DNA from: a bacterium
GTDB taxonomy: Bacteria > KSB1 > UBA2214
Length of the DNA: 42,311 bases
Direction: 5' to 3'
Assembly: GCA_029560815.1 (NCBI GenBank)
Contig: JAKQKF010000168.1
Coordinates: 1 to 42,311 of the forward strand
In this document: in pieces, positions 10,852 through 36,838 of the stretch
Numbering within the stretch: the first letter of the stretch is position 1
How the letters are laid out: every line of letters starts with the position of its first letter
Translations under genes and position numbers: made by a program
The notes under the pieces: generated by a model
Seen by the model: only the letters and a program-made list of their open reading frames with translations
Databases searched by the model: none
Told to the model about the DNA's origin: nothing

Positions 10852-13332
10852 TCATTCCAGCAGCAGCAGCTTGCGTGTAAGCCGCCGTTTTCCGCTGGAG
10901 AGGGAGTAGAAATAGACCCCCGAACAGAGCGGGAGCCCGCTGGCATCCATCCCGTTCCACGACACCTGATGGCGCCCGGACTCCATCCGGCCGCCGGCCA
11001 GGGTAACCTGCCGCCGGCCGCGGAGATCATAAACGGCCAGCTCCATCTGAACCGCCCGGCTCAGGGTGAAGGCGATCCGGGTCCTGTCGTTGAAGGGATT
11101 GGGATAATTCTGTTCCAGGTCGAAATCCGCCGGCAATTCCAGCGTGCTCTCCCGCACGCCCGCCGGTCCGGCAATGACGAAGACGCTGGTATCCTGAAAC
11201 ATGATCTGCCAATCGCCCAGTGCAGCGCCGATCTTCTCGCCCTCGTTGATCAGGTAGGCCCTGGCCGGCACAACCGCAGGTGAATCGGCACCCAGCCCGG
11301 CATCACAGGGCTGCAGAACATGCAGGAACTGCTGTTCGACAGCGCCTCCGGCGTTGCGGAACTGGTACAGATCCGCAGTCGCGCTGATGACCGTTCCCTC
11401 CGCGGGCCAAAGCCGCCTCAGCCACACATTCGCCCCTCCGTTGCCGAAACGGAGCAGTTCCGGGCTGATCGCCTCCGGTTGTCCGGCCGGATCGAGGATC
11501 CAGTCACTTCTTGAACTTGAGGCTTTCGTGACCACCCGGTCGTATATGAGGAAGGTATGGGTATCCTCCAGATGGACCACCGTTCGCACCGCCCGCTTCA
11601 CTTTGGCGGCGTTGTAAGCGTTGGTCGCATCACCGACCATCAGATCAAAGTGCCCGCCATCGATAAAACGGACGATTCCGGGGCCGATATCATAGGTGCC
11701 GCCCGCAGTGAAAGGATCGGTGCCCAGAGAAAGAGCCGGAAAACTGCTCACCGTACGCTGCTTCTCGCCATCGACCAGCACGACATTCTGATAGCCCTCG
11801 ATGAGCTTGCCCTTGTAATCGAGCGTAAAACTGTTCTGCGACTTTTGGTCCAGCGCGCTCCAGCGGAATGGCTGGCTGACGAACAGGGCGGCGATGTCGT
11901 CGACCGCGGTGAAACCGCTGCGCATAAAAACCCACCCCAGCTGGCGGAACCATCGGGTGAGCGGATAGCCCAGTTCCTGCGGCGGGCGCGGATTCACCCA
12001 CTTGTCCTCGAACATGAGCTGATCGAAAAAATCCCACGAACCGGCATTGACAAAAAACGTTGGACTGGCAACCGCGCGCAGCCAGGCACCAAGCTCGCCG
12101 ATCCTGCGCTGTTCGGCATCCGCGGAGAAGCGCCGGCGGGCATAGAGGCGCATCGGCGCCACCCAGGGCATGCGCGATCCGGCATCGGGATAGGGCGGAT
12201 AGTAATAACCGTCGGGAAGAATCATGTAATTCTGGAATTCGACGCTGTTCCGGAGAATGCCGGTGCTGAAGAGCGAACGCTCGATGGTCTCCCCTGTGGC
12301 GGTGTAATGGGCAAAGAGAAGAGGAGCGATCTGCCACGGTACGACCGAACCATAGGTATAATAGGGCTCCAGATACTCGGTCATGGAACCGAAGCCTGCA
12401 TGCCAGCCGCCGTCCCCGCCCTGAAGGTTGAGAACCGGCAGAATCCTGCCCACCCACCAGGTATCGAAATCGTCGAGATAGCCCTTCGCCTTTTCATTCA
12501 CCGCCGCATAAGCGGCATCGCCGAGACGGGAGGGCTCGTAGAGGGCGAGGCCGACCATGAAATAGACATAGGCGGAGAGTTCTGAATCGATAAAGGGGTT
12601 CCCCTTGCCGCCCGCCTCCTTGCGGACGTGTTCGGCATTATCAAGGAGCAGATTCTGCAGGGTAGTGCGGTCCTGGGCCGAAAGCACCGCCTCGCCATTA
12701 CTGTATTTCATCGGCAGCAGCCAGTCATAGCCCACCGAGCCGTAAATGCAGATCCAGTAGGCCCATTCGTAATAGAGCGAAATCTTGGCGAGTCCGAGCA
12801 GTTTGGCCCGCGCATCGGCATAGAATTCATCGGCGCTGTGGACCGGGCCGTAGGTCATGGTCGAATAGGGCTCGAGGGAGGAAGGCAGACTTTTCTCCCA
12901 GCCGTATCGGCGGGCATGTGCGGAAAGTATCGTCCACAAAAAGCGCCGGCCAAAGGTGCTGCCGTCGGCCCGGCCGAAACAGGCGGGATCGTCGGCGACC
13001 CCGCTTACATAGAAGAACTCGGCCTTGGATTGATCGTTATCCGGCCCCTTGATATTGACCGTTGCGCCATGCACAATGCGCCAGGCCAGGGTCCCTTCAA
13101 GGAGCGGATTCCACTCCGATTCACCATGCGCCCAAAGGCGCGGGTGGTGTGCGACCACCAGAGCGGCCGTCGATTTGGCGCCCGACCGGATCTCACGTTC
13201 CAGGGAGGAGGCATAATAATCGGCCGCATCCGGCTGCGCGGCCGTTGTTTTCCCGCCCGGCCCGAGCAGGAGGAGCACGGCTGCAAGTGCAGCCAGGCTG
13301 ATGAACAGTCTGTTTTTGATGAAAGCTAGCAT
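10852..13332 (-). CDS. Secreted heparinase II/III-like lyase with sorting-type C-terminal domain
   Basis: The 826-residue product begins with a signal peptide (KNRLF, then ISLAALAAVLLLLG). An alpha-helical toroid-like region rich in Trp and Tyr follows (for example EWAYWICIYGSVGYDWLL), then a beta-rich half with WVFMRSGFTAVDDIAALFVSQP, typical of heparinase II/III-type polysaccharide lyases, which cleave uronic-acid polymers by beta-elimination. The final 90 residues are a sorting-type domain (QNYPNPFNDRTRIAFTL, WNGMDASG, GVYFY). AAAGGA lies directly against ATG 13341 but nine bases before ATG 13332, so 13332 is the likely start. A lyase inside a synthesis locus usually trims or releases the polymer made there. 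Family assignment is by overall pattern; the catalytic Tyr/His were not pinned down. Confidence 0.75.
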   Translation of the reverse strand: MLAFIKNRLFISLAALAAVLLLLGPGGKTTAAQPDAADYYASSLEREIRSGAKSTAALVVAHHPRLWAHGESEWNPLLEGTLAWRIVHGATVNIKGPDNDQSKAEFFYVSGVADDPACFGRADGSTFGRRFLWTILSAHARRYGWEKSLPSSLEPYSTMTYGPVHSADEFYADARAKLLGLAKISLYYEWAYWICIYGSVGYDWLLPMKYSNGEAVLSAQDRTTLQNLLLDNAEHVRKEAGGKGNPFIDSELSAYVYFMVGLALYEPSRLGDAAYAAVNEKAKGYLDDFDTWWVGRILPVLNLQGGDGGWHAGFGSMTEYLEPYYTYGSVVPWQIAPLLFAHYTATGETIERSLFSTGILRNSVEFQNYMILPDGYYYPPYPDAGSRMPWVAPMRLYARRRFSADAEQRRIGELGAWLRAVASPTFFVNAGSWDFFDQLMFEDKWVNPRPPQELGYPLTRWFRQLGWVFMRSGFTAVDDIAALFVSQPFRWSALDQKSQNSFTLDYKGKLIEGYQNVVLVDGEKQRTVSSFPALSLGTDPFTAGGTYDIGPGIVRFIDGGHFDLMVGDATNAYNAAKVKRAVRTVVHLEDTHTFLIYDRVVTKASSSRSDWILDPAGQPEAISPELLRFGNGGANVWLRRLWPAEGTVISATADLYQFRNAGGAVEQQFLHVLQPCDAGLGADSPAVVPARAYLINEGEKIGAALGDWQIMFQDTSVFVIAGPAGVRESTLELPADFDLEQNYPNPFNDRTRIAFTLSRAVQMELAVYDLRGRRQVTLAGGRMESGRHQVSWNGMDASGLPLCSGVYFYSLSSGKRRLTRKLLLLE

Positions 13333-13341
13333 ACTCTTCAT

Positions 13342-13347
13342 TCCTTT
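13342..13347 (-). promoter_or_regulatory. Ribosome binding site deciding the lyase start
   Basis: AAAGGA on the minus strand directly abuts ATG 13341 and lies nine bases before ATG 13332. Normal spacing favours 13332, giving a signal peptide starting MLAFIKNRLF. Confidence 0.55.
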
Positions 13348-13410
13348 CGTGCGCCTCGCACCCTCATCATCCGCAGGGTGAAGCGCCATAACCACCCGTC
13401 CCAAATCCTG

Positions 13411-13453
13411 CGCCGCTTCAAGCCGCCCGGCTAAAGGCCGGACGGAAGCGGCG
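13411..13453. repeat. Two-tier hairpin between the beta-helix and lyase genes
   Basis: The outer arms CGCCGCTTC (13411-13419) and GAAGCGGCG (13445-13453) are perfectly complementary. Inside them CCGGC (13427-13431) and GCCGG (13437-13441) form a second stem with loop TAAAG. It lies 35 bases after the beta-helix stop in minus-strand direction and could stabilise or attenuate the transcript. It has no U-tract. Confidence 0.45.
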
Positions 13454-13487
13454 GCCGCTCCGCATGTACGTCTCCGCGCAGAGCCCA

Positions 13488-15002
13488 TTACCGGAGCAGC
13501 AGCAGTTTCTGCACCGAGATCCGGTCGTCATGGAGAATCCGGCAGAGATAAATTCCACTCGGGGCCGGCTCCCCGTTGCTGTCGCGTCCGTCCCAGGCCA
13601 GCTCCAGTGGGCCAGCAGGGCGGCTTCCCCTGGCAATGCTGGCGATCTTTTGCCCCAGGGCGTTATAGATATCGGCCTCGATCTCGATGGAGCGCTCCAG
13701 ATGGCCGGAGATGGTGGTGTGAGCCCGAAAAGGATTGGGATAGCTCGGCACCATGGAAAAAACTGCGGGCCGGGAAGAATGGCCCGTATTGAGCCCGGCG
13801 GCCCCCTGAAACTCCCTTGCACCAAGGTCAGGGGCCACCCCCTCGTACTCAAGGCCGTTCAGCAGTCCGGCATCCAGGGCCGGACTGGCAGCGGTGAGCT
13901 GGAATCCCTCGGCGTCGACACTGGCGAAGAGGGGATCCTTGATGATGGATTGCAAAGCCGTCATCCCTTCGCTGCGCACCGGTGAAGGCCAGAGCAGATT
14001 GCGTTCCGCTACGATCGGGGTGGAAGGCACGTCTGCACGGAGATGGTATCCGCCCGCGGTGACGATGATGTTGTTGTAGATGCGGATATCCTGGGCGTTC
14101 ACAATCATGATGCCGTCCGCCGCGTTGTTGTACAGGGTATTGTTGCAGATCTCGACATGGCTGATCCTGCCGTTCCACGCCTTGATGTAGATGCCGTGGG
14201 TCCCGTTGTTGGCGATGATATTGCGACGGATGATAACACTGTCCATGATCACGCCGGGCGTCGGGCTGTCGGCAGAGGTGCCCAGGATGATACCCGCCCG
14301 GGTTTTACAGTTGGCGACATAATTCTCTTCGATGAGGATGTTGTGGTACTCGCGGACAAAACCCGGTTCATCGCCAACCTTGTGCTCATCAAAGACGTGA
14401 ATGCCATACTTGTAGGTGCCAAGTATCCGGTTCCGGCGTACAATATTGTCACGGCCGTAATGGAGATAGATGGCATGCGACAGGCCATTGCTGTTCTCAA
14501 AAATGTTGCCCTCGATCAGGCTGTGATTGCCGCTGAACTCCAGAGGGATGAGAAAATTACCTACAAAGCGGTTGTTAAGGACCTCGACATAATTACGGGC
14601 ATCGGGGCTGCCGGTATAGGGCATGCGCAGGCTGTAGGTATTGCGAAAGGTGAATCCCTGGATGCGGATGTAATTGGCGTCGACGATCATGAGCCGCTCT
14701 CCGTCGAGTTCGACCGTCTCGCCGGGATAGGCCATCAGCGTCACATAGCGGCCGTCCGCGCCCCCCATCCCCCGCGCCTTGCGGATCCAGACCTCGCCCT
14801 CGTCGTACCGTCCACCCATTACCAGCAGCGTATCTCCCGGCGTCAGCTGCCAGATGGCATGATTGAAGGTGGCCCACGGCGCCTGAAGCGTGCCCGGATA
14901 GCCATCCGATCCGTTTGTCGCCATGTAATAGTGCCCGGCTGCGAGCGGGCCGGCCCACAGCATGGCGATAAAGAGAAGCACCCGCTGAGTTCGTTTGCTC
15001 AT
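13488..15002 (-). CDS. Secreted right-handed parallel beta-helix protein with sorting-type C-terminal domain
   Basis: The 504-residue product has a signal peptide (RVLLFIAMLWAGPLAAG) and then YYMATNGSDGYPGTLQAPWATFNHA, the usual opening of secreted pectate-lyase-like beta-helix proteins. Regular N- and I-rich rungs follow (VEVLNNRFVGN, SLIEGNIFENSNG, VIIRRNIIANNGTHGIYI, ISHVEICNNTLYNNAADGI), so it probably binds, cleaves or epimerises a polysaccharide. The last ~90 residues form the sorting-type domain (PSYPNPFRAHTTISG, WDGRDSNGEPAPSGIYLC). The frame is open 15 codons further up, but ATG 15002 gives a proper signal peptide. It is the first gene after the 313-bp gap, with a promoter-like site at 15200-15227. 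AlgG-type C5-epimerases share this fold, but no diagnostic residues were identified. Confidence 0.78.
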   Translation of the reverse strand: MSKRTQRVLLFIAMLWAGPLAAGHYYMATNGSDGYPGTLQAPWATFNHAIWQLTPGDTLLVMGGRYDEGEVWIRKARGMGGADGRYVTLMAYPGETVELDGERLMIVDANYIRIQGFTFRNTYSLRMPYTGSPDARNYVEVLNNRFVGNFLIPLEFSGNHSLIEGNIFENSNGLSHAIYLHYGRDNIVRRNRILGTYKYGIHVFDEHKVGDEPGFVREYHNILIEENYVANCKTRAGIILGTSADSPTPGVIMDSVIIRRNIIANNGTHGIYIKAWNGRISHVEICNNTLYNNAADGIMIVNAQDIRIYNNIIVTAGGYHLRADVPSTPIVAERNLLWPSPVRSEGMTALQSIIKDPLFASVDAEGFQLTAASPALDAGLLNGLEYEGVAPDLGAREFQGAAGLNTGHSSRPAVFSMVPSYPNPFRAHTTISGHLERSIEIEADIYNALGQKIASIARGSRPAGPLELAWDGRDSNGEPAPSGIYLCRILHDDRISVQKLLLLR

Positions 15003-15315
15003 TTCGCTCTCGCTTTCTTGCTGGGTAATGCAGTGAAGCGCGGGCACACCAGGTCAGTCGGGAGCGTTGATAAGATGAGGAGAGGGCGTCGTGCGCGCGG
15101 CAGCGAAGCTGCGATGGAGCAGGAAAAAACGGCGGGAGCATGATGCTTCCCTGCACCGTCACCTCCCTGCTCCGGGGAATTACCCGCAATACAGCCAAAA
15201 TTGTACCAGAGTTCTTGCACTCGTCAGGCCCGTTTAACTAACTTAATAATTAATATGTTGGAGAATGACGGCTGTTCCGCCGGTGGTGCTGCCAATTACG
15301 ATTGTGCGATCAGCC
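15003..15315. other. 313-bp gap with promoter-like site and AT-rich patch
   Basis: This is the longest gene-free stretch. Bases 15232-15262 are strikingly AT-rich (TTTAACTAACTTAATAATTA core) against GC-rich flanks. A minus-strand promoter candidate lies at 15200-15227 just below it. No convincing terminator hairpin was found after the GT4 stop at 15316. The remaining ~190 bases would be a long leader for the beta-helix gene. Confidence 0.5.
15200..15227 (-). promoter_or_regulatory. Candidate promoter for the second gene block
   Basis: On the minus strand CTGACG (15227-15222), a 16-base spacer and TACAAT (15205-15200) match sigma-70 consensus at 4/6 and 5/6. The AT-rich patch lies upstream, where an UP element would be. 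It would drive the beta-helix, lyase, decarboxylase, CapK, deacetylase, synthase-like and SGNH-like genes. Confidence 0.45.
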
Positions 15316-25255: not shown

Positions 25256-26431
25256 TTACTTGTTCACACCGGCCAGAGCCTCTGCATAAGCGGTCTCGAG
25301 TCCGCTGATCATGACCGGTGTCGAGAAATTTTCCATCACCCGCCTGCGTGCGGCGGCGCCGAGTCGTTTTCGCAGCGCGAGATCATCCAGAAGGAGGCCC
25401 ATCTCCCGGCCGAGCGCTCCGGCATCGGCGGCAGGCACCAGCAGGCCGCTCTCGCCATGGACCACCGCTTCGGGATTGCCCCCCACCCGGGTGGCGATCA
25501 CCGGCAGGCCCGCGGCCATGGCTTCGAGCAGGGCATTGGAAAAACCCTCGCTCAGGGAGGGCAGCACGAAAAGGTCCATCATCCCGATCAGCTCCACCGC
25601 ATCCGTGCGCCGCCCCAGCCGCTTCACCCGCTCCCCCATGCCGTTCTCCGCGATCAGCCCCTCCAGCAGGGCGCGATAGGAGCCGGCCGCTTCGGGATGC
25701 TGGGCATCGGCGTCTCCGCCGATGAGCACGAGCTGAATCTCCGGCCGCTTTTCCCGAGCACGGGCAAAGGCCTGCAGGAGATACTCCACTCCTTTCACCG
25801 GCCGCCAGTTGGCGACGCAGCCAATGATGGGCAGATCGGGGTCAAGTCCATTGTCCCGGGCCAGCCTGGCCTTTCGCTCCGGATCAGCCGGGGAAGGCAC
25901 CTCCACGCCGTTATAGATCGTGCGAATCCGCTCCGGTGCAATATGTTCCCGCCTTGAGATCTCGGTGCGCATGAGCTGAGAGTTGGTCAGGGTTTGCGCG
26001 ACTGCGGGATTCATCAAACGCCGCAGCCAGAGGTGGTGCGGACTGGTTTCAGTAAAGCCCATGTCCCGGCGGCTGGAGATCCAGACCGGATTGCCCCACA
26101 GCCTTTTCCAGATCGCGGCAAAAAGATCCGAGCCAAGATGAATCGATTGAATCAGGGAGATCTTCTCCTCCCGCATGATCCGTCTCATTTTGAGCGCTGC
26201 TGCGCAGGCCCCGCCATCCCAGGAGCGATTCAGGCCGAGGGGTTCGACGCGGATCCCCTCCGCGCGCATGCGGGCGATCATCGGACTCTCCAGTGGCTGC
26301 AGGGGAGCGACGACCGGCCGGAATCGGCTTCTCTCCAGTCCGGTGACAGTCCGAAAAAGATTGTTCTCCGTCCCGGCGTTATCGTAGAGGATGTCGATGA
26401 GATAGAGGATGCCGACCGGCTCTTCACGCAT
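25256..26431 (-). CDS. GT4 glycosyltransferase
   Basis: The 391-residue GT-B protein starts with ILYLIDILYDNAGTENNLFRTV (acceptor loop), has TIYNGVEVPSP at the lobe boundary, GCVANWRPVKGVEYLLQAFA in the donor lobe and PSLSEGFSNALLEAMAAGLPVIATRVGGNPE with the E-x7-E pair. It is a retaining cytoplasmic glycosyltransferase of the locus, the first one downstream of the initiating enzymes. It overlaps the 3' end of the formyltransferase-deacetylase gene by eight bases, implying coupled translation. Confidence 0.87.
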   Translation of the reverse strand: MREEPVGILYLIDILYDNAGTENNLFRTVTGLERSRFRPVVAPLQPLESPMIARMRAEGIRVEPLGLNRSWDGGACAAALKMRRIMREEKISLIQSIHLGSDLFAAIWKRLWGNPVWISSRRDMGFTETSPHHLWLRRLMNPAVAQTLTNSQLMRTEISRREHIAPERIRTIYNGVEVPSPADPERKARLARDNGLDPDLPIIGCVANWRPVKGVEYLLQAFARAREKRPEIQLVLIGGDADAQHPEAAGSYRALLEGLIAENGMGERVKRLGRRTDAVELIGMMDLFVLPSLSEGFSNALLEAMAAGLPVIATRVGGNPEAVVHGESGLLVPAADAGALGREMGLLLDDLALRKRLGAAARRRVMENFSTPVMISGLETAYAEALAGVNK

Positions 26432-28073
26432 GCCGCCCGCCTTTGCGCGGCAGCAGTTCCCGCCAGCCGCCCGTCAACTTGTGGAGAAAAGCGAGCCCTA
26501 CGTCCCCCGTACCGACGTTGATCCTTAAAATATTGTACGGATCCAGGGGGAAACGGTTTACCCCGCCGTAAGCGCTGAAGAGAGCGCTCAGCCCGGTCCG
26601 CGCCGATACATACTCCTTCAGTTCACAGGTAAAATCCTTCTCCTTGCCGAAGGGATAGGACATCACCACCGCGTCATGGCCCATCTTTTCGCGATAGAGG
26701 CGGAGCGAAGTTTCGATCTCATCGGCGGCCTCCTCCAGACTCAGCCCGGCCATGTTGCGGTGGGTATGGGAGTGGACACCCACATCGACCCCCTCCCTCT
26801 CGCATTCTCGCAGCTGCTCCCAGCTCATGTTGCGGAAGCGGAAGTCAGGGGCGAGATGGCGGTCGTGGTCGAAGGGCGTATCCTCCCCGATCAGGGCTGT
26901 GGAGACAAAAAAGAGCGCGGGGACGGCGTAGCGCGTCAGGATCGGCAGAGCCTGGGTGTAGTTATCTTCATAGCCGTCATCAAAAGTGATCAGGCAGGCA
27001 TCCCGCTGCAGCCTGCTCCCGGCCGCAAGCAGGGCGCTCAGTCCGGAGAGAGAGAGCATCTCAAAGCGGCGGGTCAGCAGCCGGATCTGCCGCTCGAAAT
27101 CATCAACACCGATGGTCATGCCGTCCCGGCAGAGATCGCTGACACGATGGTAGTAGAGCACGACCAGCCGGCCATCATGACGGCGGAAGAGCTGTTTCTG
27201 CAAGCCATGGAGGAAAAGGATCAAAAGATAGTAGACACTCCGGGCTGGCCTGCGCAACAGCCCCCGCCATCGCCGCTGTCTGATGAACAGGCGCCATCGC
27301 AGTGCGCCCCGCTGACGGAGAGTGGGAAAAAAGTACTGTTTTCCTCCCCCGGTCTGCCTCTCCCGTTTGCAGCTCCCGCGCGCCACCCGGCGCACAGCTT
27401 CGGGATAGAGATGAAGCGCGGTCTCCGAGAGTCTGGCCTGCAAATCTTCCAGACTGTCGCCGGAGAGGATCGGCACCAGCTCCTGCAGGACGATATCGCC
27501 GGTATCGACCCCCTCGTCGATGAAATGGATCGTCACCCCCGCTTTCTCTTCGTTGTTCCACATCTCCCAGAACCCCGGCGGCGCTCCGCGATAGCGCGGC
27601 GCTTCGCCCTGATGCAGGTTGAGGGTCCCGATCGCAGGCAGCGTAAAAACAGCCGGCCGCAGAATCGGCGTGCCGCAGACCAGAAGCAGATCGCACGCGA
27701 GGGAGCGCACCAGTTCCACCCCCTCCTGCGAATGAAGCTTGCCGATCTTGTGCAGGTGCAGGGCATGGCGGTCGCAGATGCTTTCCAGATTCCCGGTCCG
27801 CTCCGGGCCATAGAGCAGACGACCGATGGTCGCCCGCCACGCCACCTGTGCCAGCTCCACCACAAGGTAGCCCGCCCGCCACGGCACATAAATCCAGCCG
27901 TGCTTGCGCAGATTCCAGCGGAAGGTTGCCCAGCTCCGCCGCTGCGGAAGCCAGCGGATCACATCAGCAAGCTCGATTTCTTCAATACGGAGGAATTGAG
28001 AGATCAATCTCGCGATGAATGCGTCGTCCAGCGAGGTGAGCAGCACCGCTCTGATGCGTCTGCTCTCGTTCAT
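26424..28073 (-). CDS. Formyltransferase fused to NodB-type deacetylase
   Basis: The 549-residue product joins two enzymes. Residues about 8-235 are a formyl-tetrahydrofolate-dependent formyltransferase with the catalytic triad Asn152, His154 (GTLNLHQGEAPRYRG) and Asp190 (GVDTGD). After a basic linker with a hydrophobic patch (SVYYLLILFLHGLQ, 279-292), residues about 302-540 are a NodB domain with ITFDDGYED (Asp365, Asp366) and HSHTH (His434, His438). All key residues are present in both. In lipid A Ara4N synthesis the ArnA N-terminal domain formylates the amino sugar and ArnD, also a NodB protein, removes the formyl group after transfer to the lipid carrier; this fusion would combine both steps. 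The start at 28073 is set by GGAG five bases upstream; ATG 28124 has no ribosome site. Confidence 0.85.
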   Translation of the reverse strand: MNESRRIRAVLLTSLDDAFIARLISQFLRIEEIELADVIRWLPQRRSWATFRWNLRKHGWIYVPWRAGYLVVELAQVAWRATIGRLLYGPERTGNLESICDRHALHLHKIGKLHSQEGVELVRSLACDLLLVCGTPILRPAVFTLPAIGTLNLHQGEAPRYRGAPPGFWEMWNNEEKAGVTIHFIDEGVDTGDIVLQELVPILSGDSLEDLQARLSETALHLYPEAVRRVARGSCKRERQTGGGKQYFFPTLRQRGALRWRLFIRQRRWRGLLRRPARSVYYLLILFLHGLQKQLFRRHDGRLVVLYYHRVSDLCRDGMTIGVDDFERQIRLLTRRFEMLSLSGLSALLAAGSRLQRDACLITFDDGYEDNYTQALPILTRYAVPALFFVSTALIGEDTPFDHDRHLAPDFRFRNMSWEQLRECEREGVDVGVHSHTHRNMAGLSLEEAADEIETSLRLYREKMGHDAVVMSYPFGKEKDFTCELKEYVSARTGLSALFSAYGGVNRFPLDPYNILRINVGTGDVGLAFLHKLTGGWRELLPRKGGRHA

Positions 28074-28130
28074 AGTATCTCCATCGGCATCGCGGATCCT
28101 GATATCGCGTGAAGAAAAGACCATCAGAGA

Positions 28131-28161: not shown

Positions 28162-28440
28162 TCACATGAAGGTCACATTCAGCTTTGGCACCTCCAGACC
28201 CTTTTGTCTGGCCTCAACAAATGTGCTGATGCGCTGCACCGAGTCCAGATTTTCGGGAATGATCTCATCATCTTCGATGCGCAGATCGAATGTCTGTTCG
28301 AGAAAGGCCACCAGTTCGATCACACCGGTCGAATCGACAAAACCGCTGCTGCTCAGGGAATCGTCGTCTTTCAGTTTGCCGCCATCGCCAAATAGAAACG
28401 TCTCCGAAATGTAGTGATGAACCTGGTCTCTGATCGACAT
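28162..28440 (-). CDS. Acyl carrier protein
   Basis: The 92-residue product is an acidic, helical acyl/peptidyl carrier protein. The phosphopantetheine serine is Ser37 in GFVDSTGVIEL, followed by FLEQTFDLRIEDDEIIPENLDSVQRISTFV, the typical helix II-III region. GGAGGAAAGAG directly before ATG 28440 fixes the start; the frame is open 15 codons above it without a ribosome site. It lies between an NAD-synthase-like gene and the formyltransferase fusion, in the same transcript as an acyl-CoA ligase that could load it. It is a dedicated carrier for the modification pathway rather than the housekeeping fatty-acid ACP (inference from context). Confidence 0.88.
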   Translation of the reverse strand: MSIRDQVHHYISETFLFGDGGKLKDDDSLSSSGFVDSTGVIELVAFLEQTFDLRIEDDEIIPENLDSVQRISTFVEARQKGLEVPKLNVTFM

Positions 28441-28502
28441 CTCTTTCCTCCATCCATTGTTCTTGCAGTACACTTCATCGCTCATGCGCCTGACCGCCCT
28501 GC

Positions 28503-29528
28503 TCAGGCCGTCCGGCCGGAGCGCCCCAACTCTTCACTCCCGGCTGCCGCCGCCTCATGCGCCAAGCTGTCAAACCGCAGCGCCGGCATACGCAGGAAGG
28601 CCGTGCCGTTCTTTTTACTGCGGATATCGGCGACCACACGCTCCACCTGTTCGGGCGCGAGCGCAAAACGCACGGCCAGCTCTTCCGGCGTCGCGCCGTT
28701 CTCGCTCTCCTGCCAGATGGCATCCATCACCCCGAAGGGGATGCGGAAGAAGAACTCCTCCTGGGTTACTTCAGCAGGGTAGGTATCGGTCGTCGGCGCC
28801 CGTTCGATGATTGCGGCCGGAATCTCAAGGGCATGCGCCAGCATGTAGATCTGGGTCTTGAACAAATGGATGATCGGCATTAAATCGGCGCCGCCATCTC
28901 CATGTTTAACAAAAAAACCCATTTCATGCTCGTTTTTATTTCCGGTCCCCGCCATGGCATAGTTGCGGCGTTCGGCATGATAGTAGAGCATCGTCATGCG
29001 CAGACGCTGTTTCATGTTTGATGCCGCGACGATCTGGCTGTACTCCTGCGGTCCCAGCCGTTTGCTCTCTTCCTCTCCCCCGGCACGGATCAGGGTGAGG
29101 CTGAAGACATTGAGACGGTTGTCGGCCAGGGGGGTGGACTGCAGCGTGATTTTGAAAGGCATCCCCGGCTCGTAGTCAGGGAAGAGGCGGCGGACAGCCT
29201 CATCCCGCCGCCGGTAAGCCCCCATCCCCTCCAGGCCGGCGGTGATATCCTCGACGCCAAATTCTATACCCAGTCTTTCAGCCAGCTCCCGTGCCAGCAC
29301 CAGACTCTGGGGGGAGGAATCCCGCTCCGGCAGACCCAGGGCGACCACCCGGCCGGCGCCCAGCGCCTTCACACTCAGGGCGGCGACGACCGCTGAATCG
29401 ATGCCCCCGCTCAGGCCGATCACAACACCCCTTTTTTTCAGGCTCTGCTGGACGCTCGCTCGGATCCAGCCGCTCAGCCGCTCGACCTCCCTGGCGGCAT
29501 CGAATTGCTCTCTCGGAGTGCCTTGCAC
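28503..29528 (-). CDS. NAD-synthase-like ATP-pyrophosphatase (NadE family)
   Basis: The 341-residue product is close to ammonia-dependent NAD synthase: PP-loop VVIGLSGGIDSAVVAAL, GTGNKNEHEMGFFVKHGDGGADLMPIIHLFKTQIYMLA, and EIPAAIIERAPTTD. NadE alone is about 275 residues; this one has an insert in the middle (YEPGMPFKITLQSTPLADNR and AGGEEESKRLG) and a longer tail. No glutaminase domain is present. Such NadE homologues occur in polysaccharide loci next to ACP and amidotransferases, where an amide-forming adenylation of a carrier- or sugar-bound acid is more plausible than NAD synthesis. AAAGGA six bases before GTG 29528 favours that start; the in-frame ATG at 29543 has no ribosome site. Confidence 0.8.
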   Translation of the reverse strand: MQGTPREQFDAAREVERLSGWIRASVQQSLKKRGVVIGLSGGIDSAVVAALSVKALGAGRVVALGLPERDSSPQSLVLARELAERLGIEFGVEDITAGLEGMGAYRRRDEAVRRLFPDYEPGMPFKITLQSTPLADNRLNVFSLTLIRAGGEEESKRLGPQEYSQIVAASNMKQRLRMTMLYYHAERRNYAMAGTGNKNEHEMGFFVKHGDGGADLMPIIHLFKTQIYMLAHALEIPAAIIERAPTTDTYPAEVTQEEFFFRIPFGVMDAIWQESENGATPEELAVRFALAPEQVERVVADIRSKKNGTAFLRMPALRFDSLAHEAAAAGSEELGRSGRTA

Positions 29529-29534
29529 ATCGCT

Positions 29535-29540
29535 TCCTTT
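29535..29540 (-). promoter_or_regulatory. Ribosome binding site deciding a GTG start
   Basis: AAAGGA on the minus strand lies six bases before GTG 29528 of the NadE-like gene and inside the five codons added by ATG 29543. This placement argues for the GTG. Confidence 0.5.
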
Positions 29541-29620
29541 CATTAATGAGTGGAACAGCGGCCGCCTGCAGCGGTGAAAGCGGAAACGTTCACCCGAACG
29601 CCTCTTCTCCTGCAGCGCTC

Positions 29621-31162
29621 TCAGCGTTCCGCCAGCATGGCGGTCAGCCTCTTTTTATCGATCTTGCCATTGGGCGATTTGGGCATCTCCTCGATGAAGA
29701 TGACCTCGCGCGGCACACAAAAACTCTCCAGATTAGCGGAACAGTGGCGCAGGATCTCCGCCGTGGAGAGATCGCCCCCATCCTGCCTTTGTACGATCGC
29801 CACTACGGCTTCACCGAGGAGAGGGTCGGGCATGCCGACCACGGCGGCCTCACCGACCCCTGCGATCTGGTAGAGCACATTTTCGACCTCGCGCGGACTC
29901 ACCTTCTCGCCCTTGCATTTGATGATGTCATCCTTGCGGCCGACGAAGTAGAGAAAGCCCTCCTCATCCCGGCGGAAAAGATCGCCCGAATAAAGAACCC
30001 GCTCGTAGGGATGACGGCCCTGCCGCAGCGCCCTGCTGGTCTCAGCGGGCAGGTTCCAGTAGCCCTGCATAACATTCGCGCCGCGCACCACCAGCTCACC
30101 CGTTTCGCCGGGAGCGACCTCCCTGCCCTCCTCATCGACGATCAGAGTATCGCAGTTCGGCATCGCCTTGCCGACAGAGCCGGGCCTGCGGTCGATCTCC
30201 TCGGGCGGCAGATAGGCCACCCGTTTGCACTCGGTGAGCCCGTACATCGAAAAGATGGTGGTCTGCGGCCAGGCCGCGCGCAGCCGGGCGATGAATGCGG
30301 CCGGCAGGGCGGCGGCGGTGTTGCTGACGTAACGCAGATCGGGAAAGCGGTATTTTTCCCACCCCGCCAGGCTGAAGAGCAGGCCGAAAATGGTCGGCAC
30401 CCCCGGGAACCCGGTCACCTTTTCCTCGATCATCCTCTGGATGATTACCTTGGGATAGATAAAATCTTTCTCGAGGATGAGGGTGCCGCCGAAGCTGAGT
30501 ACCATGAGCAGCTGGTAGAGCCCGTAATCGAAGGAAAGCGGCAGGACGCTGAGCACGATATCCTGTTCCGTGTTCTCCAGATAGGTGGTGATGGAGGTGA
30601 CCGCCGAGTGCATGTTGAGATGGGTCATCATCACCCCTTTGGGATTGCCTGTGCTGCCGGAGGTATAGATGAGAGCGGCCAGATCGATGTCGATAATCCG
30701 TGGCAGATCAGCCCCGACCGGCGGCGCGGCGAAAATTTCAGCCAGCGCAGGGGAGTCCGCCCCCTCGTCGCCGGGCGTATCGAGCATGATCACCCTGAGC
30801 CCGGCGAGATCCGCACGCAGCCGCTCGAGAGGCAGCCGGCGCGCCCGCTGCGAAATGAGGACGGCGGCGCCGCAATCCCGCAGCACATAGACCAGCTTGT
30901 CGTACTTGGTGGTGGGATTGAGGCAGACAAAGACCCCTCCCGCCATCAGGACGGCATAGATCGCCACACAGGTATCGGCCGAATTATCCATGTAGAGCAG
31001 AACCCGGTCGCCGCGCCTGACGCCGATGCCGACCAGATGGCGGGCCAGGCGATCGGCCGCCGCCCCGAACTCCGCATAGCTCAGCGTGACGCCGCCCGCC
31101 TTGAGCGCAATTTTGCCGGCATGAAGCGGGACATTCTGCAGAAAACGGTCATGTAACAGCAT
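29621..31162 (-). CDS. AMP-forming acyl-CoA/ACP ligase (exosortase-A-associated type)
   Basis: The 513-residue product is an ANL-family ligase that activates a carboxylic acid as acyl-AMP and passes it to CoA or a carrier protein. Visible motifs are the phosphate loop ALIYTSGSTGNPKGVMMTH (about residue 165), FSMYGLTECKRV, YSGDLFRRDEEGFLYFVGRKDDIIKCKGEKVSPREVE and PKSPNGKIDKKRL with the catalytic Lys near 502. It resembles the 'acyl-CoA ligase (AMP-forming), exosortase A system-associated' group. ATG 31162 overlaps the end of the asparagine synthase gene by 14 bases. The ACP gene two genes downstream is a natural partner. Confidence 0.85.
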   Translation of the reverse strand: MLLHDRFLQNVPLHAGKIALKAGGVTLSYAEFGAAADRLARHLVGIGVRRGDRVLLYMDNSADTCVAIYAVLMAGGVFVCLNPTTKYDKLVYVLRDCGAAVLISQRARRLPLERLRADLAGLRVIMLDTPGDEGADSPALAEIFAAPPVGADLPRIIDIDLAALIYTSGSTGNPKGVMMTHLNMHSAVTSITTYLENTEQDIVLSVLPLSFDYGLYQLLMVLSFGGTLILEKDFIYPKVIIQRMIEEKVTGFPGVPTIFGLLFSLAGWEKYRFPDLRYVSNTAAALPAAFIARLRAAWPQTTIFSMYGLTECKRVAYLPPEEIDRRPGSVGKAMPNCDTLIVDEEGREVAPGETGELVVRGANVMQGYWNLPAETSRALRQGRHPYERVLYSGDLFRRDEEGFLYFVGRKDDIIKCKGEKVSPREVENVLYQIAGVGEAAVVGMPDPLLGEAVVAIVQRQDGGDLSTAEILRHCSANLESFCVPREVIFIEEMPKSPNGKIDKKRLTAMLAER

Positions 31163-33167
31163 GGTGCCAGGCCCCCTTTTCACTGAAAGCGCCGGTGTCT
31201 CCCCGTTTGTCATAGATGAGCCAGTCGTTATGCACTCTCCGCACGGGAGCGGTAATCCCGCCGATGAAAAGCTCCTGCAGCATCCCCGTCGTTAAAATCA
31301 TCATCAAGGCCATCTCCTCCCGCGCGGAAAGGGTGCTCTTCGGATCGAAAAGCCTTTTGGTCAGCAGCTCGACCTTGCCGGCGTTGAACCACCCGTCCGA
31401 TTTCAGCCGGTCGTTTTGCAGATAGGGCTGGAACCGCTCCATGGCGGCGAGAAACATCTCCCTGATCGGAGCACGATAGGGCTGTTTGGTCCGGTTCACC
31501 ACCTGGCTGGGCAGACAGTCTGCGAAGCTCCGCTTGAGAATCCACTTTTCATCCAGCCCGCGCAGCTTGAGACGAGGCGCGATGCGCAGGGCCAGCTGAA
31601 TGACCCGCTTGTCCAGAAAGGGATAACGGCCTTCGATGCTGTGGCTCATGAGCATGCGGTCGCCCTGGGAGCAGAGCAGATAGCTGCCGAGAAAGATGTA
31701 ATATTCCAGAAAATGGGCGCGGGCCAGGGGGTCGAGGCCATCCATCATGCCGTTGATTTGATGGTGAAGCTCCTCCACCGGATCGTACTGGCCGAGCATG
31801 GCGAGCTTGTCGGCATTGAGAAACTGAAGGATGAAGGCGCCGTTCTGCCAGCGCAGCCGGTGAGAATAAAAGGGATCGCCGACTTGCGTGATGTCCCGCA
31901 GGAAGAACTGGCGCCAGAAAGCGGCATTGCGGGCATCCCGGCCGTCCAGATAGGGATAGATCCTCTGCAGCAGCAGCTGGCGCCATGCCGACTGCGGCTG
32001 CCGGGCGATGAAAAGACGGACCTTGGTCTCCTTGTAGATATTGTAGCCCGAAAAAAACTCGTCCGCCCCCTCGCCGGTCAGGACCACCTTGAATCCGCTC
32101 TGGTGGACGCGCTGTGAGAGCAGGAAGAGGGGGATCGGGGCGCTGCGCAGCAGGGGCTTTTCCGCATGCCAGATCACATCGGAGAGATGGGCACCGAGAT
32201 CGCTGTTCTTGGTCGCCAGCGCCGTGTGTTCGGTGCCGAGATACCCCGAGACCATCTGCTGGAAAAAGGTCTCATCATAGTGCGGATTCTCAAAGCCGAT
32301 CGAAAAGGTGCGCAGCCGTCCGCTGTGCAGCCGCCTGATCATGGCCGTAGTGATCGAAGAGTCGAGTCCGCCACTGAGGTAGGCGCCGACCGCCACATCC
32401 GCACGCAGGCGGATGCGCACCGCATCCTCGATCAGTTCCCGGGTGGCCTCGATTGCGGCTGCGGGCTCCTTGATCTGCTCCACCTCGGCGCAGGCATATT
32501 CCGGATGCCAGTAGCGCACCTCCTGCAGGTAATCCTCCTGCACCCGCAGATAGCAGCCGGGCTTGATCTCCCGTATGCCGTTGAAAGGGGTCTTGCCGGG
32601 CAGGGGCGACCAGAAGACGCAGGTCTGGGCGAGCGCGATTTCATCGAGCGACTTGCGCAGCCCGGGCAGGGTGAAGAGGGACTTGACCTCCGAGGCGAAA
32701 GCGAAGTAGCCGTCAGCCAAATAGTAGAGCGGACAAATGCCGACATGGTCACGCGCCAGAAAGAGCTGCCGCTGCCGCGTGTCCCAGATGGCGAGCGCAA
32801 ACTGCCCGTTGACAAGCTTGAGCATGTCGGCACCGAATTGCTCATAAAGGTGGAGGAGCACCTCGACGTCGCAGCGGGTGAAAAAGCGGTGGCCGAGGTG
32901 GCGGAGGCGCTTGCGCAGCTCGATATAGTTAAAAATTTCCCCGTTGCAAACCAGCCAGAGAGTGCCGTCCTCGTTGGAGATGGGCTGTGAACCGCCGTAA
33001 AGATCGATGATGCTCAGACGGGCCTGCCCGAGGGCCACCTGGTCATCGAGATAGACGCCGCATTGATCCGGTCCGCGGTGACGCAAACTGTCGACCATCG
33101 ACTGCATGAGAGGCAGCGGCTCCCTGGTCAGGCGCGACCAGGAGAGGACACCAGCGATTCCACACAT
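31149..33167 (-). CDS. asnB: Asparagine synthase (glutamine-hydrolysing) family amidotransferase
   Basis: The 672-residue product begins MCGIAGVLSW with the class II glutaminase nucleophile Cys2, followed by LRHRGPDQCG and VCNGEIFNY, so the glutaminase half is intact. The synthase half has the PP-loop VAVGAYLSGGLDSSITTA (about residue 256-273) and VVLTGEGADEFFSGY. It is longer than E. coli AsnB (554 aa) because of a C-terminal extension, as in the exopolysaccharide-associated amidotransferases. It probably amidates a uronic acid or an acyl group of the polymer precursor rather than making free asparagine (inference from context). GAGGAA before ATG 33167 fixes the start; the frame is open above it. 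The dehydratase fusion ends 7 bases upstream. Confidence 0.88.
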   Translation of the reverse strand: MCGIAGVLSWSRLTREPLPLMQSMVDSLRHRGPDQCGVYLDDQVALGQARLSIIDLYGGSQPISNEDGTLWLVCNGEIFNYIELRKRLRHLGHRFFTRCDVEVLLHLYEQFGADMLKLVNGQFALAIWDTRQRQLFLARDHVGICPLYYLADGYFAFASEVKSLFTLPGLRKSLDEIALAQTCVFWSPLPGKTPFNGIREIKPGCYLRVQEDYLQEVRYWHPEYACAEVEQIKEPAAAIEATRELIEDAVRIRLRADVAVGAYLSGGLDSSITTAMIRRLHSGRLRTFSIGFENPHYDETFFQQMVSGYLGTEHTALATKNSDLGAHLSDVIWHAEKPLLRSAPIPLFLLSQRVHQSGFKVVLTGEGADEFFSGYNIYKETKVRLFIARQPQSAWRQLLLQRIYPYLDGRDARNAAFWRQFFLRDITQVGDPFYSHRLRWQNGAFILQFLNADKLAMLGQYDPVEELHHQINGMMDGLDPLARAHFLEYYIFLGSYLLCSQGDRMLMSHSIEGRYPFLDKRVIQLALRIAPRLKLRGLDEKWILKRSFADCLPSQVVNRTKQPYRAPIREMFLAAMERFQPYLQNDRLKSDGWFNAGKVELLTKRLFDPKSTLSAREEMALMMILTTGMLQELFIGGITAPVRRVHNDWLIYDKRGDTGAFSEKGAWHHAVT

Positions 33168-33174
33168 AGGTTCC

Positions 33175-35640
33175 TCACGGTTGAATGTCGGAAACCGTCT
33201 CGTTGACTTTAGAGAACTGATACTCCGGGACCAGGTCGGACAAAGCCCGGCGCACGGCATCCGCCGAGTGCAGAAGGCTTTGTTCGATGAGCTGATCGAT
33301 GCGCGGCGCCAGCTCCGGCAGAGGGTATATCTGCTTGGGCACGATGCGGCTGATCAATTTGTGGCTGGTCGACAGACAGCTCTCCTCCTCACCCACCAAC
33401 TCCTCGTAGAGCTTCTCGCCGGGACGCAGGCCCACCTGCTTGATCTCAATATCGGTGTAGGGCCGGAGGCCGGAGCGTTTAATCATATCGGCGGCCAGCT
33501 TCTCGATTCTGACCATCTGCCCCATGTTGAGGATGTAGATCTCGCCGCTCTCGCCGATGGTCACCGCCTGCAGGATCAGATTGACCGCCTCCGGGATGCT
33601 CATGAAAAAGCGTTCGATCCGCTTGTCGGTCAGGGTTACCGGTCCGCCCGCCTGGATCTGCTTCATAAAGAGGGGCACGACACTGCCATGGCTGCCGAGC
33701 ACATTACCGAAACGAACGGTGATAAAACGCGTGTTGCTGTAGGGCGCAAAGGCCTGGAAAAAGAGCTCGGCCACCCGCTTGGTCGCTCCCATCACGCTCG
33801 AGGGATTGACGGCTTTGTCTGTGGAGACAAAGACAAAATGGCCCACACCGTAGCGGTCTGCACAGCGCGCCATGACCCGCGATCCGAGGATGTTGTTGCG
33901 CACCGCTTCATCGGAATTGGCCTCACTGAGCGGGACATGCTTCTGCGCTGCTGTGTGAAAGACAATCTCGGGCCTTGTCTCGGAGAAGATCTTTTCCATT
34001 TTCTCCACGTCGGTAATATCGCCGAGGAGAAATCTCAGCTCCGCATTGGGGCTGACGGGCAGCTCGCTCTGCAGTTCAAAGAGATAGTTCTCACTGCGGT
34101 CGAGCAGGATCATCTGCCGGGGATGCTGCGCGAAAACCTGCCTTACCAGCTCGGAACCGATGGAGCCTCCGGCGCCGGTGATGAGGATGCGTTTGCCGGT
34201 GATAAAATTCTGGATCGCGTCGAGATCAAGGCTCAACCGCTTGCGGCCGAGCAGGTCGGTGACATCGACATCACGCACCTTGGAGAGGTGGATGCGGCCG
34301 CTCACCACATCGGCAATGGCCGGCACGATGCGGTGTTTCAGCTTGGTCTTTTCGCAGTAGGAGAGGATATCGGCCAGTTCTTCGGAGGCGATATTGCTGA
34401 TCGCGATAAAAATCTCCTCGGCGCGCAGCATTTTGGCGGCATGGGGGATATCCTTGCGGTTGCCGAAGACCTCGATGCCGTGCAGGGCGGTGCCGATCTT
34501 TTGCGGATCGTCATCGATAAAGCCCACGATCACATAGGGGTGACTGTTCTTGTTCTGCTCGCGGATGAGCATCTCGCCGACGCTGCCGGCACCGATAACC
34601 AGCACCTGTTTGGCGACCAGATAGCTCTGTGCGGGCTCTTTTTCGCTCTGGATGCGCAGGAAGAGGCGGACGCCGGCCATGGCACCGAGCAGGAAGAGCC
34701 AGTCGATGAAAAAGATCGAACGCGACAGGACACGCAAACCGATGAAAAAGATGACGATAACGGTGGCAAGGGTGCTGTAGGTGACCGCCTTGGCCATCTT
34801 GAAAAGATCCGGCAGCCCGATATACTTGTAAAGCCCCTGATAGAGACGGAAGTAGATGAAAAAAAGAGCGCGCAGGGCGACCACGACCGGCAGGCTGCGG
34901 GTAAAGTTATGCAGCTCCTCTCCGGGGATATGCCAGTCGAAGCGGAGGCAGTAGGCAAGAAAATAGACGCTGATGACCAGGAACATGTCGATGACGAAGA
35001 GCACCGGCCAGCTTGATTTCTTCTGGCGGTAAAAGGGCCGGAAGAGTCCGGAAAGGGTCGCCGAAATGCCCAGCCAGATCCAGCGCAGGTCATTGGCGAA
35101 GCGCGGATTGGCGGCGTAGCGCAGATCTATTTTCAGCTTTTCGGGCATGAGATAGTTGATATAATAGGATTCGACATCCTCGAGGTTTTCCGGCAGCATC
35201 TCCGCTTCATCCCTGCCGATGATCTGCGCCGGCCCGACCAGACCCGGCCTCACCTCCAGCACCCGGCGCTGCTCCTCCGTGTAGAGATCGACCATGCGTG
35301 GGATCTCGGGCCGCGGCCCGACCACGCTCATCTCGCCCTTGAGGACATTGTAGAGCTGCGGCAGCTCATCCAGCTTGGTCAGGCGCAGAATCCTGCCGAT
35401 GCGCGTCTCGCGCGGATCGCCGCGCGGACTGATACCCGGCCCCTTGGCAGACGCATCGGCCACCATGGTGCGCAGCTTGTAGATGATGAACGGCTTGCCA
35501 AAGCGCCCCACCCTCTCCTGACGGAAGAAAACCGGGCCTTTCGAAGTCGCCTTGATGGCAACGGACAGGATCAGTAAAAATGGGGCCGAAATGACCAGGC
35601 CAGCGATAGCGAACAGAATGTCAAAAGTGCGCTTGATCAT
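33175..35640 (-). CDS. Phosphoglycosyltransferase fused to a WbpM/PglF-type UDP-sugar 4,6-dehydratase
   Basis: One 821-residue frame joins the pathway's initiating enzyme to a sugar-synthesis enzyme. Residues 1-195 are a small monotopic phosphoglycosyltransferase (PglC-like): re-entrant helix DILFAIAGLVISAPFLLIL, KGPVFFRQERVG, YKLRTM, catalytic Asp91-Glu92 (KLDELPQ) and VVGPRPE. Residues about 212-325 hold four membrane helices, 344-480 a first nucleotide-binding domain (VLVIGAGSVGE), and 483-800 the dehydratase domain with NAD loop GAGGSIG (489-495), STDK (606-609), Met617 and Lys621, matching the Ser/Thr-Met-Lys triad of WbpM. It should make UDP-4-keto-6-deoxy-GlcNAc-type sugars and load a phosphosugar on undecaprenyl phosphate. 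The DegT gene overlaps it by 20 bases. No frameshift is seen across the junction. Confidence 0.9.
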   Translation of the reverse strand: MIKRTFDILFAIAGLVISAPFLLILSVAIKATSKGPVFFRQERVGRFGKPFIIYKLRTMVADASAKGPGISPRGDPRETRIGRILRLTKLDELPQLYNVLKGEMSVVGPRPEIPRMVDLYTEEQRRVLEVRPGLVGPAQIIGRDEAEMLPENLEDVESYYINYLMPEKLKIDLRYAANPRFANDLRWIWLGISATLSGLFRPFYRQKKSSWPVLFVIDMFLVISVYFLAYCLRFDWHIPGEELHNFTRSLPVVVALRALFFIYFRLYQGLYKYIGLPDLFKMAKAVTYSTLATVIVIFFIGLRVLSRSIFFIDWLFLLGAMAGVRLFLRIQSEKEPAQSYLVAKQVLVIGAGSVGEMLIREQNKNSHPYVIVGFIDDDPQKIGTALHGIEVFGNRKDIPHAAKMLRAEEIFIAISNIASEELADILSYCEKTKLKHRIVPAIADVVSGRIHLSKVRDVDVTDLLGRKRLSLDLDAIQNFITGKRILITGAGGSIGSELVRQVFAQHPRQMILLDRSENYLFELQSELPVSPNAELRFLLGDITDVEKMEKIFSETRPEIVFHTAAQKHVPLSEANSDEAVRNNILGSRVMARCADRYGVGHFVFVSTDKAVNPSSVMGATKRVAELFFQAFAPYSNTRFITVRFGNVLGSHGSVVPLFMKQIQAGGPVTLTDKRIERFFMSIPEAVNLILQAVTIGESGEIYILNMGQMVRIEKLAADMIKRSGLRPYTDIEIKQVGLRPGEKLYEELVGEEESCLSTSHKLISRIVPKQIYPLPELAPRIDQLIEQSLLHSADAVRRALSDLVPEYQFSKVNETVSDIQP

Positions 35641-36838
35641 GGTATACCATCCCCCTCTTTGGGCGATACCTCGCAGTACGGTGCAGCTGGCGGCGCAGAA
35701 TGGAGCAGATATGGGCCACCTCTTCGAGCTTCAGAGTCGGATACAACGGCAGGGAGATGGCGCTCCGGTATTGTCGTTCCGCCTCGGGGAAATCCCCGGG
35801 GCCATAGGAGAAAGCCTGCTGATAATAGCGGTGCAAATGCAGGGGGATGAAATGGACACTCACGCCGATGCCCGCATCCTTGAGCTCCTCAATCAGATCA
35901 TCCCGCTGGTTAGGCGGCCGCTCCCCGCCCAGGCGGATGATGTAGAGATGCCAGGCATGCCTGGTCCCGGGCCTCTCCTCGGGCAGGATCAGGTCGGGGA
36001 TGCCGGCCAGACCTTCATGATAGGCCTCGACGAGCCGGCGCCGGCGCTCCTGCATCGCCTCGAACTTGCGCAGCTGCACCAGGCCAATGGCCGCCTGGAT
36101 ATCCGAAAGGTTATACTTGTAACCCAGTTCGCAGATCTCATACCGCCAGCTCCCCTTGGCGGAATAGCGTGTCCAGGCATCGCGGGAAAGGCCGTGCAGG
36201 CTGAGCTGACGCATCAAGTCGGCGGTGGTCTCCGAATCGGTGGTGACCATCCCGCCCTCCCCTGTCGTCAGATTCTTGGTCGCGTAAAAACTAAAGACCG
36301 TCAGGGTGCCGATGCTCCCCACCGGCCGGCCTTCATACCAGGTTCCGATCGCATGAGCGGCATCCTCAACCACGCCGATGCGATGGCTGCGCGCCAGACG
36401 CATGATCTCGCTCATATTGCAGGGGTCGCCGGCCATATGCACCGGCACGATGGCTTTGGTTTTTGCTGTAATCGCAGCGGCGATCTTGCCGGGATCGATA
36501 TTGAACCCCCCTCTCTCGACATCGGCAAAGACCGGCCGGGCGCCCGTATGCACGATGGTCTCGCCAGTCGCCGAAAAGGTATACGGGGTGGTGATCACTT
36601 CGTCACCAGGCCCAACTCCAAGAGCCAGCAGGGCCAGATGCAACCCCGAGGTGCAGGAATTGACCGCCACCGCATATTTGGCCATGGTCAGCGCCGCCAC
36701 CTCTTTTTCGAACTGCGCGGCCTTGGAACCGGTGGTCAGCCAGCCAGAGCGCAAAACCTCTTTCACTGCAGCCACCTCATCGGCGCCGATGCTGGGCAGA
36801 TGGTAGGGAATGCGGCGTTTAAGCCGGGAATCGGCCAC
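35621..36838 (-). CDS. DegT/DnrJ/EryC1/StrS-family sugar aminotransferase
   Basis: The 405-residue product is a fold-type I PLP enzyme that aminates keto-sugar nucleotides. Visible features are SGWLTTGSKAAQFEKEVA, NSCTSGLHLALLALGVGPGDEVITTPYTF, EDAAHAIGTWYEGRPVG and FSFYATKNLTTGEGG with the PLP lysine. It resembles PglE/ArnB/WbpE. Paired with the fused dehydratase immediately downstream, it would turn the 4-keto sugar into a 4-amino-4,6-dideoxy sugar, the type of amino sugar the formyltransferase fusion could act on. AGGAGG upstream supports ATG 36838, 12 bases past the kinase gene's... upstream neighbour in map order; it overlaps the fusion gene by 20 bases. Confidence 0.9.
   Translation of the reverse strand: MADSRLKRRIPYHLPSIGADEVAAVKEVLRSGWLTTGSKAAQFEKEVAALTMAKYAVAVNSCTSGLHLALLALGVGPGDEVITTPYTFSATGETIVHTGARPVFADVERGGFNIDPGKIAAAITAKTKAIVPVHMAGDPCNMSEIMRLARSHRIGVVEDAAHAIGTWYEGRPVGSIGTLTVFSFYATKNLTTGEGGMVTTDSETTADLMRQLSLHGLSRDAWTRYSAKGSWRYEICELGYKYNLSDIQAAIGLVQLRKFEAMQERRRRLVEAYHEGLAGIPDLILPEERPGTRHAWHLYIIRLGGERPPNQRDDLIEELKDAGIGVSVHFIPLHLHRYYQQAFSYGPGDFPEAERQYRSAISLPLYPTLKLEEVAHICSILRRQLHRTARYRPKRGMVYHDQAHF

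Follow-up and report, generated by a model that had tools for sequence, protein, structure and literature searches.

A formyltransferase and a NodB-type deacetylase fused in one protein, proposed as an acyl-exchange enzyme of surface-polysaccharide assembly

The window, by which we mean the whole stretch of 42,311 nucleotides analysed here (contig JAKQKF010000168.1 of a KSB1 bacterium), encodes a single protein in which a formyltransferase is joined to a NodB-type deacetylase. The fusion is real, and we propose, with a probability of about one half, that the protein is a bifunctional enzyme that exchanges acyl groups in the cytosol during the assembly of a surface polysaccharide. Its NodB half would take the N-acetyl group off an amino sugar while this sugar is bound to its nucleotide or lipid carrier. 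The exposed amine would be formylated by the formyltransferase half, with 10-formyl-tetrahydrofolate as donor, and the adjoining TIGR03088-like glycosyltransferase would then use or extend the N-formyl sugar. We infer this chemistry, and likewise the action of both halves on one and the same nitrogen, the order and place of the steps, and the identity of the sugar. The exchange is supported by the fusion itself, the conserved active sites, the predicted fold and the conserved coupling to the GT4 gene. The fusion and the gene that follows it are arranged as listed.

26424..28124, minus strand: formyltransferase-NodB fusion gene (ORF listing, Pfam, start context); likelier start 28073 (549 aa)
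27270..28058, minus strand: formyltransferase half, residues 23-285, with N169, H171 and D207
27186..27269, minus strand: linker helix, residues 286-313, bearing a hydrophobic patch (alignment, AlphaFold model, residue check)
26457..27182, minus strand: NodB/CE4 half, residues 315-556, with D382, D383, H451 and H455; H420-D421 is conserved in the family
25256..26431, minus strand: TIGR03088-like GT4 glycosyltransferase, the conserved next gene (TIGR03088 is the best model, 187 bits vs a cut-off of 409)

From its first ATG (28124) the ORF encodes 566 aa on the minus strand, which the initial annotation had left unstated. The ATG at 28073 (549 aa) carries GGAGA four bases upstream and is also where P0001, a near-identical database protein, begins; inspection of the start context at 28124 found no clear Shine-Dalgarno sequence. 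The true start is thus likelier 28073. Residues are given in 566-aa numbering, which equals the 549-aa numbering of the initial annotation plus 17, and all seven catalytic residues named there proved correct (N169, H171, D207, D382, D383, H451 and H455). Pfam places Formyl_trans_N at 129-244 (E 6e-21), followed by Polysacc_deac_1 at 374-502 (E 1e-23). The first half has the Asn-x-His and Asp catalytic residues and the fold of Formyl_trans_N formyltransferases, and the second has the Asp-Asp and two-His catalytic motifs and the fold of the CE4/NodB family. Structure modelling, which had been suggested as a check, gave an AlphaFold model of the fusion protein with a pLDDT of 93.5 and a predicted helix between the halves.

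Both Pfam domains are present in 119 of the 120 homologues listed, which rules out a frame artefact. Of 85 aligned homologues, all but one have complete active sites in both halves, with N169 and H171 conserved in 84/85 and the other five residues in 85/85. The exception, P0022, retains NodB but lacks the N and H of the formyltransferase site in the alignment, an observation that speaks against the exchange. A cruder motif check was passed by 114/120 homologues listed; besides the true loss in P0022, it missed three short proteins (P0021, P0034 and P0040) and two that fail only on motif spacing and keep their catalytic residues in the alignment (P0049 and P0056).

A C-terminal GT4 is fused as a third domain in 7 of the 120 homologues listed. 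TIGR03088 is the best model for the fused GT4 in all seven and exceeds its cut-off in two (P0073 and P0077). In one further locus (L024:5616-10978), a stand-alone formyltransferase lies with a GT4-NodB fusion; the locus also contains a deacetylase of the XrtA type and a gene that matches XrtA weakly. Taken together, these arrangements indicate that three activities have been recombined and yet kept together. Two other ORFs, of 529 and 547 aa (L006:9212-10801 and L040:167-1810), carry a deacetylase domain near the C-terminus, and their first 300 or so residues are without a Pfam match. Plasmids gave no match to the fusion at E up to 1e-20, and viral contigs gave one relative, which matches the NodB half only. 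The family is already in public databases and combines two known kinds of enzyme; we did not find it described in the titles or abstract openings of open-licence PMC papers.

The initial annotation had likened the two halves to ArnA and ArnD, proposing that a 4-amino sugar is formylated for transfer and then deformylated on its lipid carrier by the NodB half. ArnA is homologous to the formyltransferase half (75.5 bits with the profile of that half), whereas its second domain is a dehydrogenase, and the fusion scores 55.9 bits against the cut-off of 777 of the NCBIfam ArnA equivalog. With the NodB-half profile, E. coli ArnD reached 5.0 bits, which is not significant, and the second deacetylase of the window (NodB2) 106 bits. 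NCBIfam gives the fusion 13 matches. Among them are the models for PgaB, IcaB, PdaA, PdaB, PgdA and NodB, none of which reaches its cut-off; the ArnD model NF011923, which is present in NCBIfam, is absent from them. As a control, the XrtA-type deacetylase of locus L003, which lies above the cut-off of its own model, scores only 1.7 bits with the NodB-half profile, so that the ArnD test speaks to the subfamily and not to the reaction. By itself the test cannot tell a deformylase from a deacetylase, a point in favour of the deformylation reading.

The best fold matches of the NodB half are de-N-acetylases. PplD, IcaB and PgaB share its fold, and we know of no formyltransferase domain in any of the three. 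Judged by sequence, the NodB half belongs to a CE4 subfamily other than that of ArnD, near PgaB, and this placement hints at its reaction without proving it.

The hydrophobic patch of the linker, through which the NodB half had been thought to reach the membrane, does lie within the predicted helix (patch 296-309, helix 286-313 in the AlphaFold model). It is not a constant feature, since the best 15-residue Kyte-Doolittle mean over 33 of the 85 aligned rows, 1.39 in the window protein and up to 2.63 in close relatives, falls to 0.27 in P0028.

PgaB and IcaB act on polymer, and the NodB half, as their structural relative, might deacetylate finished polymer in a role unrelated to the formyltransferase. 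We consider this very improbable. The NodB half is fused to a folate-dependent enzyme, which is expected in the cytosol, no secretion signal was seen by eye in the fusion protein, and the two active sites are conserved together. The expected cytosolic location argues for a carrier-linked precursor as the substrate of the proposed exchange.

We compared the gene neighbourhoods of eight related loci (L001, L002, which is from Scleromatobacter humisilvae, L003 and L097-L101), the last five from genomes of the family or order of the L002 genome; shorter cuts of the same places (L082-L084 and L090-L096) were not counted again. Their fusion proteins share 30-35% identity with the window protein, and closer homologues share 41-66%. 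At least three fusion loci (L001-L003) occur among the 80 loci listed from a genome-contig scan. Related fusions were found in 4/299 genomes; by an exact motif pattern they were found in 3/399, a sample in which the pattern recovered a known positive (G002). Loci of closer relatives were sought by protein and alignment search in 82 genomes from the phylum of a KSB1 record, and in 249 and 296 genomes chosen from a Gemmatimonadetes and an Acidobacteriota record, with at most 5 candidates per genome scored in the latter two; none was found. The exact pattern gave 0/14, 0/198, 0/148 and 0/165 genomes. All these zero counts, by search and by pattern, are weak evidence, since the samples contained no known positive, few candidates were scored per genome in two of them, and the pattern admits exact matches only. 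One positive in a further sample (1/118), L104, was dropped together with L105 and L106, as they matched no reference protein.

Neighbours were sought by tblastn, and the genes of L003 were named by NCBIfam. A TIGR03088-like GT4 directly follows the fusion in all eight loci, as it does in the window, where the two genes overlap by 8 bp. An AsnB-like gene lies near the fusion in 8/8 loci (at 24% identity in L099). XrtA, FemAB and an XrtA-type deacetylase are present in every locus except L099, and seven of the eight are XrtA/PEP-CTERM exopolysaccharide clusters. In L003, exosortase A, FemAB and TIGR03088 exceed their cut-offs, and a TviB match reaches 482 bits against a cut-off of 592. A TviB-like UDP-GlcNAc 6-dehydrogenase with at least 71% identity to that of L003 is found in 4/8 loci, directly upstream of the fusion in L003, L097 and L098 and 6-7 kb away in L099, where it adjoins a TviC-like C-4 epimerase (a 268-aa piece scores 379 bits, cut-off 760). 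The only matches to the L003 gene in L001 and L002 have 26-27% identity. Neighbours of the TviB, TviC and AsnB types suggest 2-amino-hexuronic acids or amides of these. For the proposed exchange, we regard a 2-amino-hexuronic acid of the GalNFoA kind as the likeliest substrate in the relatives; the window enzyme could act on a different 2-acetamido sugar.

The initial annotation had drawn the 4-amino sugar from the WbpM-type dehydratase and DegT aminotransferase of the window and had asked whether such genes regularly accompany the fusion. They do not: tblastn found DegT near the fusion in 0/8 related loci and WbpM in 0/8, one weak WbpM-like match in L099 being the TviC-like gene. Elsewhere in the genomes, PF01041 (DegT-family) matches exceed the cut-off in 8/8, with a best E below 1e-100 in seven; a 4-amino sugar is thus conceivable, which counts against the exchange. 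The best of these matches in G1230 is divergent (E 2e-28; no more than 80 bits with sugar-transaminase models, whose cut-offs are 375 or higher), and G1197 has a similarly divergent gene about 22 kb from the fusion. Near the fusion, an amine could also come from the XrtA-type deacetylase (7/8 loci) or from several ORFs to which no identity was assigned. Two more candidate sources, both below the cut-offs of their best models, are an aminotransferase of the amino-acid type in L101 and, in L099, a gene of a dehydratase family.

On these grounds we regard formylation followed by deformylation as distinctly unlikely. Its positive evidence is limited to the ArnA-like half, the hydrophobic linker helix and the WbpM and DegT genes of the window, and the cycle otherwise lacks support. 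The NodB half falls in a subfamily other than that of ArnD, DegT and WbpM are not conserved beside the fusion, and both reactions in one protein would presumably be futile unless their substrates were strictly separated. The earlier interpretation is thus partly supported: an intact fusion in a sugar-polymer locus stands, as do its two catalytic sites and the hydrophobic helix that separates them. The other genes of that locus discussed here are listed.

28162..28485, minus strand: acyl carrier protein, upstream of the fusion (Pfam, NCBIfam)
28503..29543, minus strand: NAD-synthase-like protein (PRK00876, 407 bits vs a cut-off of 313)
29621..31213, minus strand: AMP-dependent ligase (nearest model the exosortase A-associated TIGR03098, 497 bits vs a cut-off of 592)
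31149..33260, minus strand: AsnB-like amidotransferase (TIGR01536 over cut-off; TIGR03108 382 bits vs a cut-off of 817)
33175..35640, minus strand: single ORF joining a sugar-phosphate transferase to a WbpM-type dehydratase (Pfam, NCBIfam)
35621..36838, minus strand: DegT aminotransferase (PseC model 396.5 bits vs a cut-off of 423.5)
10852..13488, minus strand: protein with a T9SS sorting domain, in the same locus (TIGR04183, 34.4 bits vs a cut-off of 23)

The NAD-synthase-like protein (28503-29543) sits between the ligase and the carrier protein, amid polysaccharide genes. A further AsnB-like protein (5323-7158) is possibly degenerate: in Pfam it matches a glutamine-amidotransferase domain only weakly and in part, and Asn_synthase not at all. 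Within the polysaccharide locus, two adjacent proteins (10852-15047) end in sorting or FlgD-like domains, the second having a FlgD-like domain and a sub-threshold sorting-domain match.

The window itself would also suit a diamino sugar. Its WbpM and DegT genes, with no TviB-like dehydrogenase found in the window by tblastn, could be the source of a 4-amine that needs no deacetylation, which counts against the exchange. The formyltransferase would then cap this 4-amine, and the NodB half would free the 2-amine of the same sugar by removing the 2-N-acetyl group, as would fit its de-N-acetylase-like fold. The window also has no tblastn match to the FemAB of L003, a VimA/FemAB-like re-acylating enzyme, and with this gene content the alternative is live there. 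With DegT and WbpM near the fusion in 0/8 related loci and only a divergent best DegT-family match in G1230, we nevertheless judge it unlikely.

The carrier protein and the AMP-dependent ligase just upstream of the fusion raise another alternative, in which the formyl group goes to an amino-acyl residue borne by the neighbouring carrier protein, a reaction like that of the formylation domain of LgrA, itself one of the sequence matches. In tblastn searches of the related loci the carrier protein was detected in 0/8 and the ligase in 1/8, and we give this idea very little credence.

For the proposed exchange, the nearest published analogue is the pair VimE and VimA. In the sections of PMC7468200 consulted, VimE is a putative deacetylase and VimA serves re-acylation in the T9SS linking-sugar (Wbp/Vim) pathway, so that, as in our proposal, a sugar amine would be deacetylated and then re-acylated, in T9SS organisms. 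Unlike the fusion, these are two separate proteins, and a FemAB-related enzyme adds an amino acid, not a formyl group. Amidation by WbpS, an amidotransferase in P. gingivalis that the same sections treat, is a further precedent. The sugar type suggested by the neighbours in the relatives also occurs in P. aeruginosa O6, for which an excerpt of PMC11706664 lists a repeat with GalNFoA, and one of PMC6025236 describes WbpO as making UDP-GlcNAcA and proposes that WbpS makes a uronamide.

The authors of PMC7468200 link the T9SS linking-sugar pathway speculatively to exosortase systems, and in the part consulted they describe the compound attached to sorted proteins in XrtA clusters as unidentified. 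The window shares several gene types with XrtA/PEP-CTERM clusters, XrtA itself being present in 7/8 related loci, but its genes fall below the cut-offs of XrtA-associated models, and tblastn found no match to the XrtA of L003 in the window, which may not span the whole locus. It is doubtful, but conceivable, that the fusion, dedicated to replacing N-acetyl by N-formyl, makes an N-formylated linking sugar for sorted surface proteins, that is, for PEP-CTERM proteins in the XrtA clusters and T9SS cargo in the window organism.

If the proposed exchange is true, one protein carries out acyl exchange on a sugar nitrogen, and N-formyl 2-amino sugars, GalNFoA for example, could be made by a simple route. 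It would also add a second deacetylate-then-reacylate module to the XrtA clusters and make the question of their linked compound directly testable.
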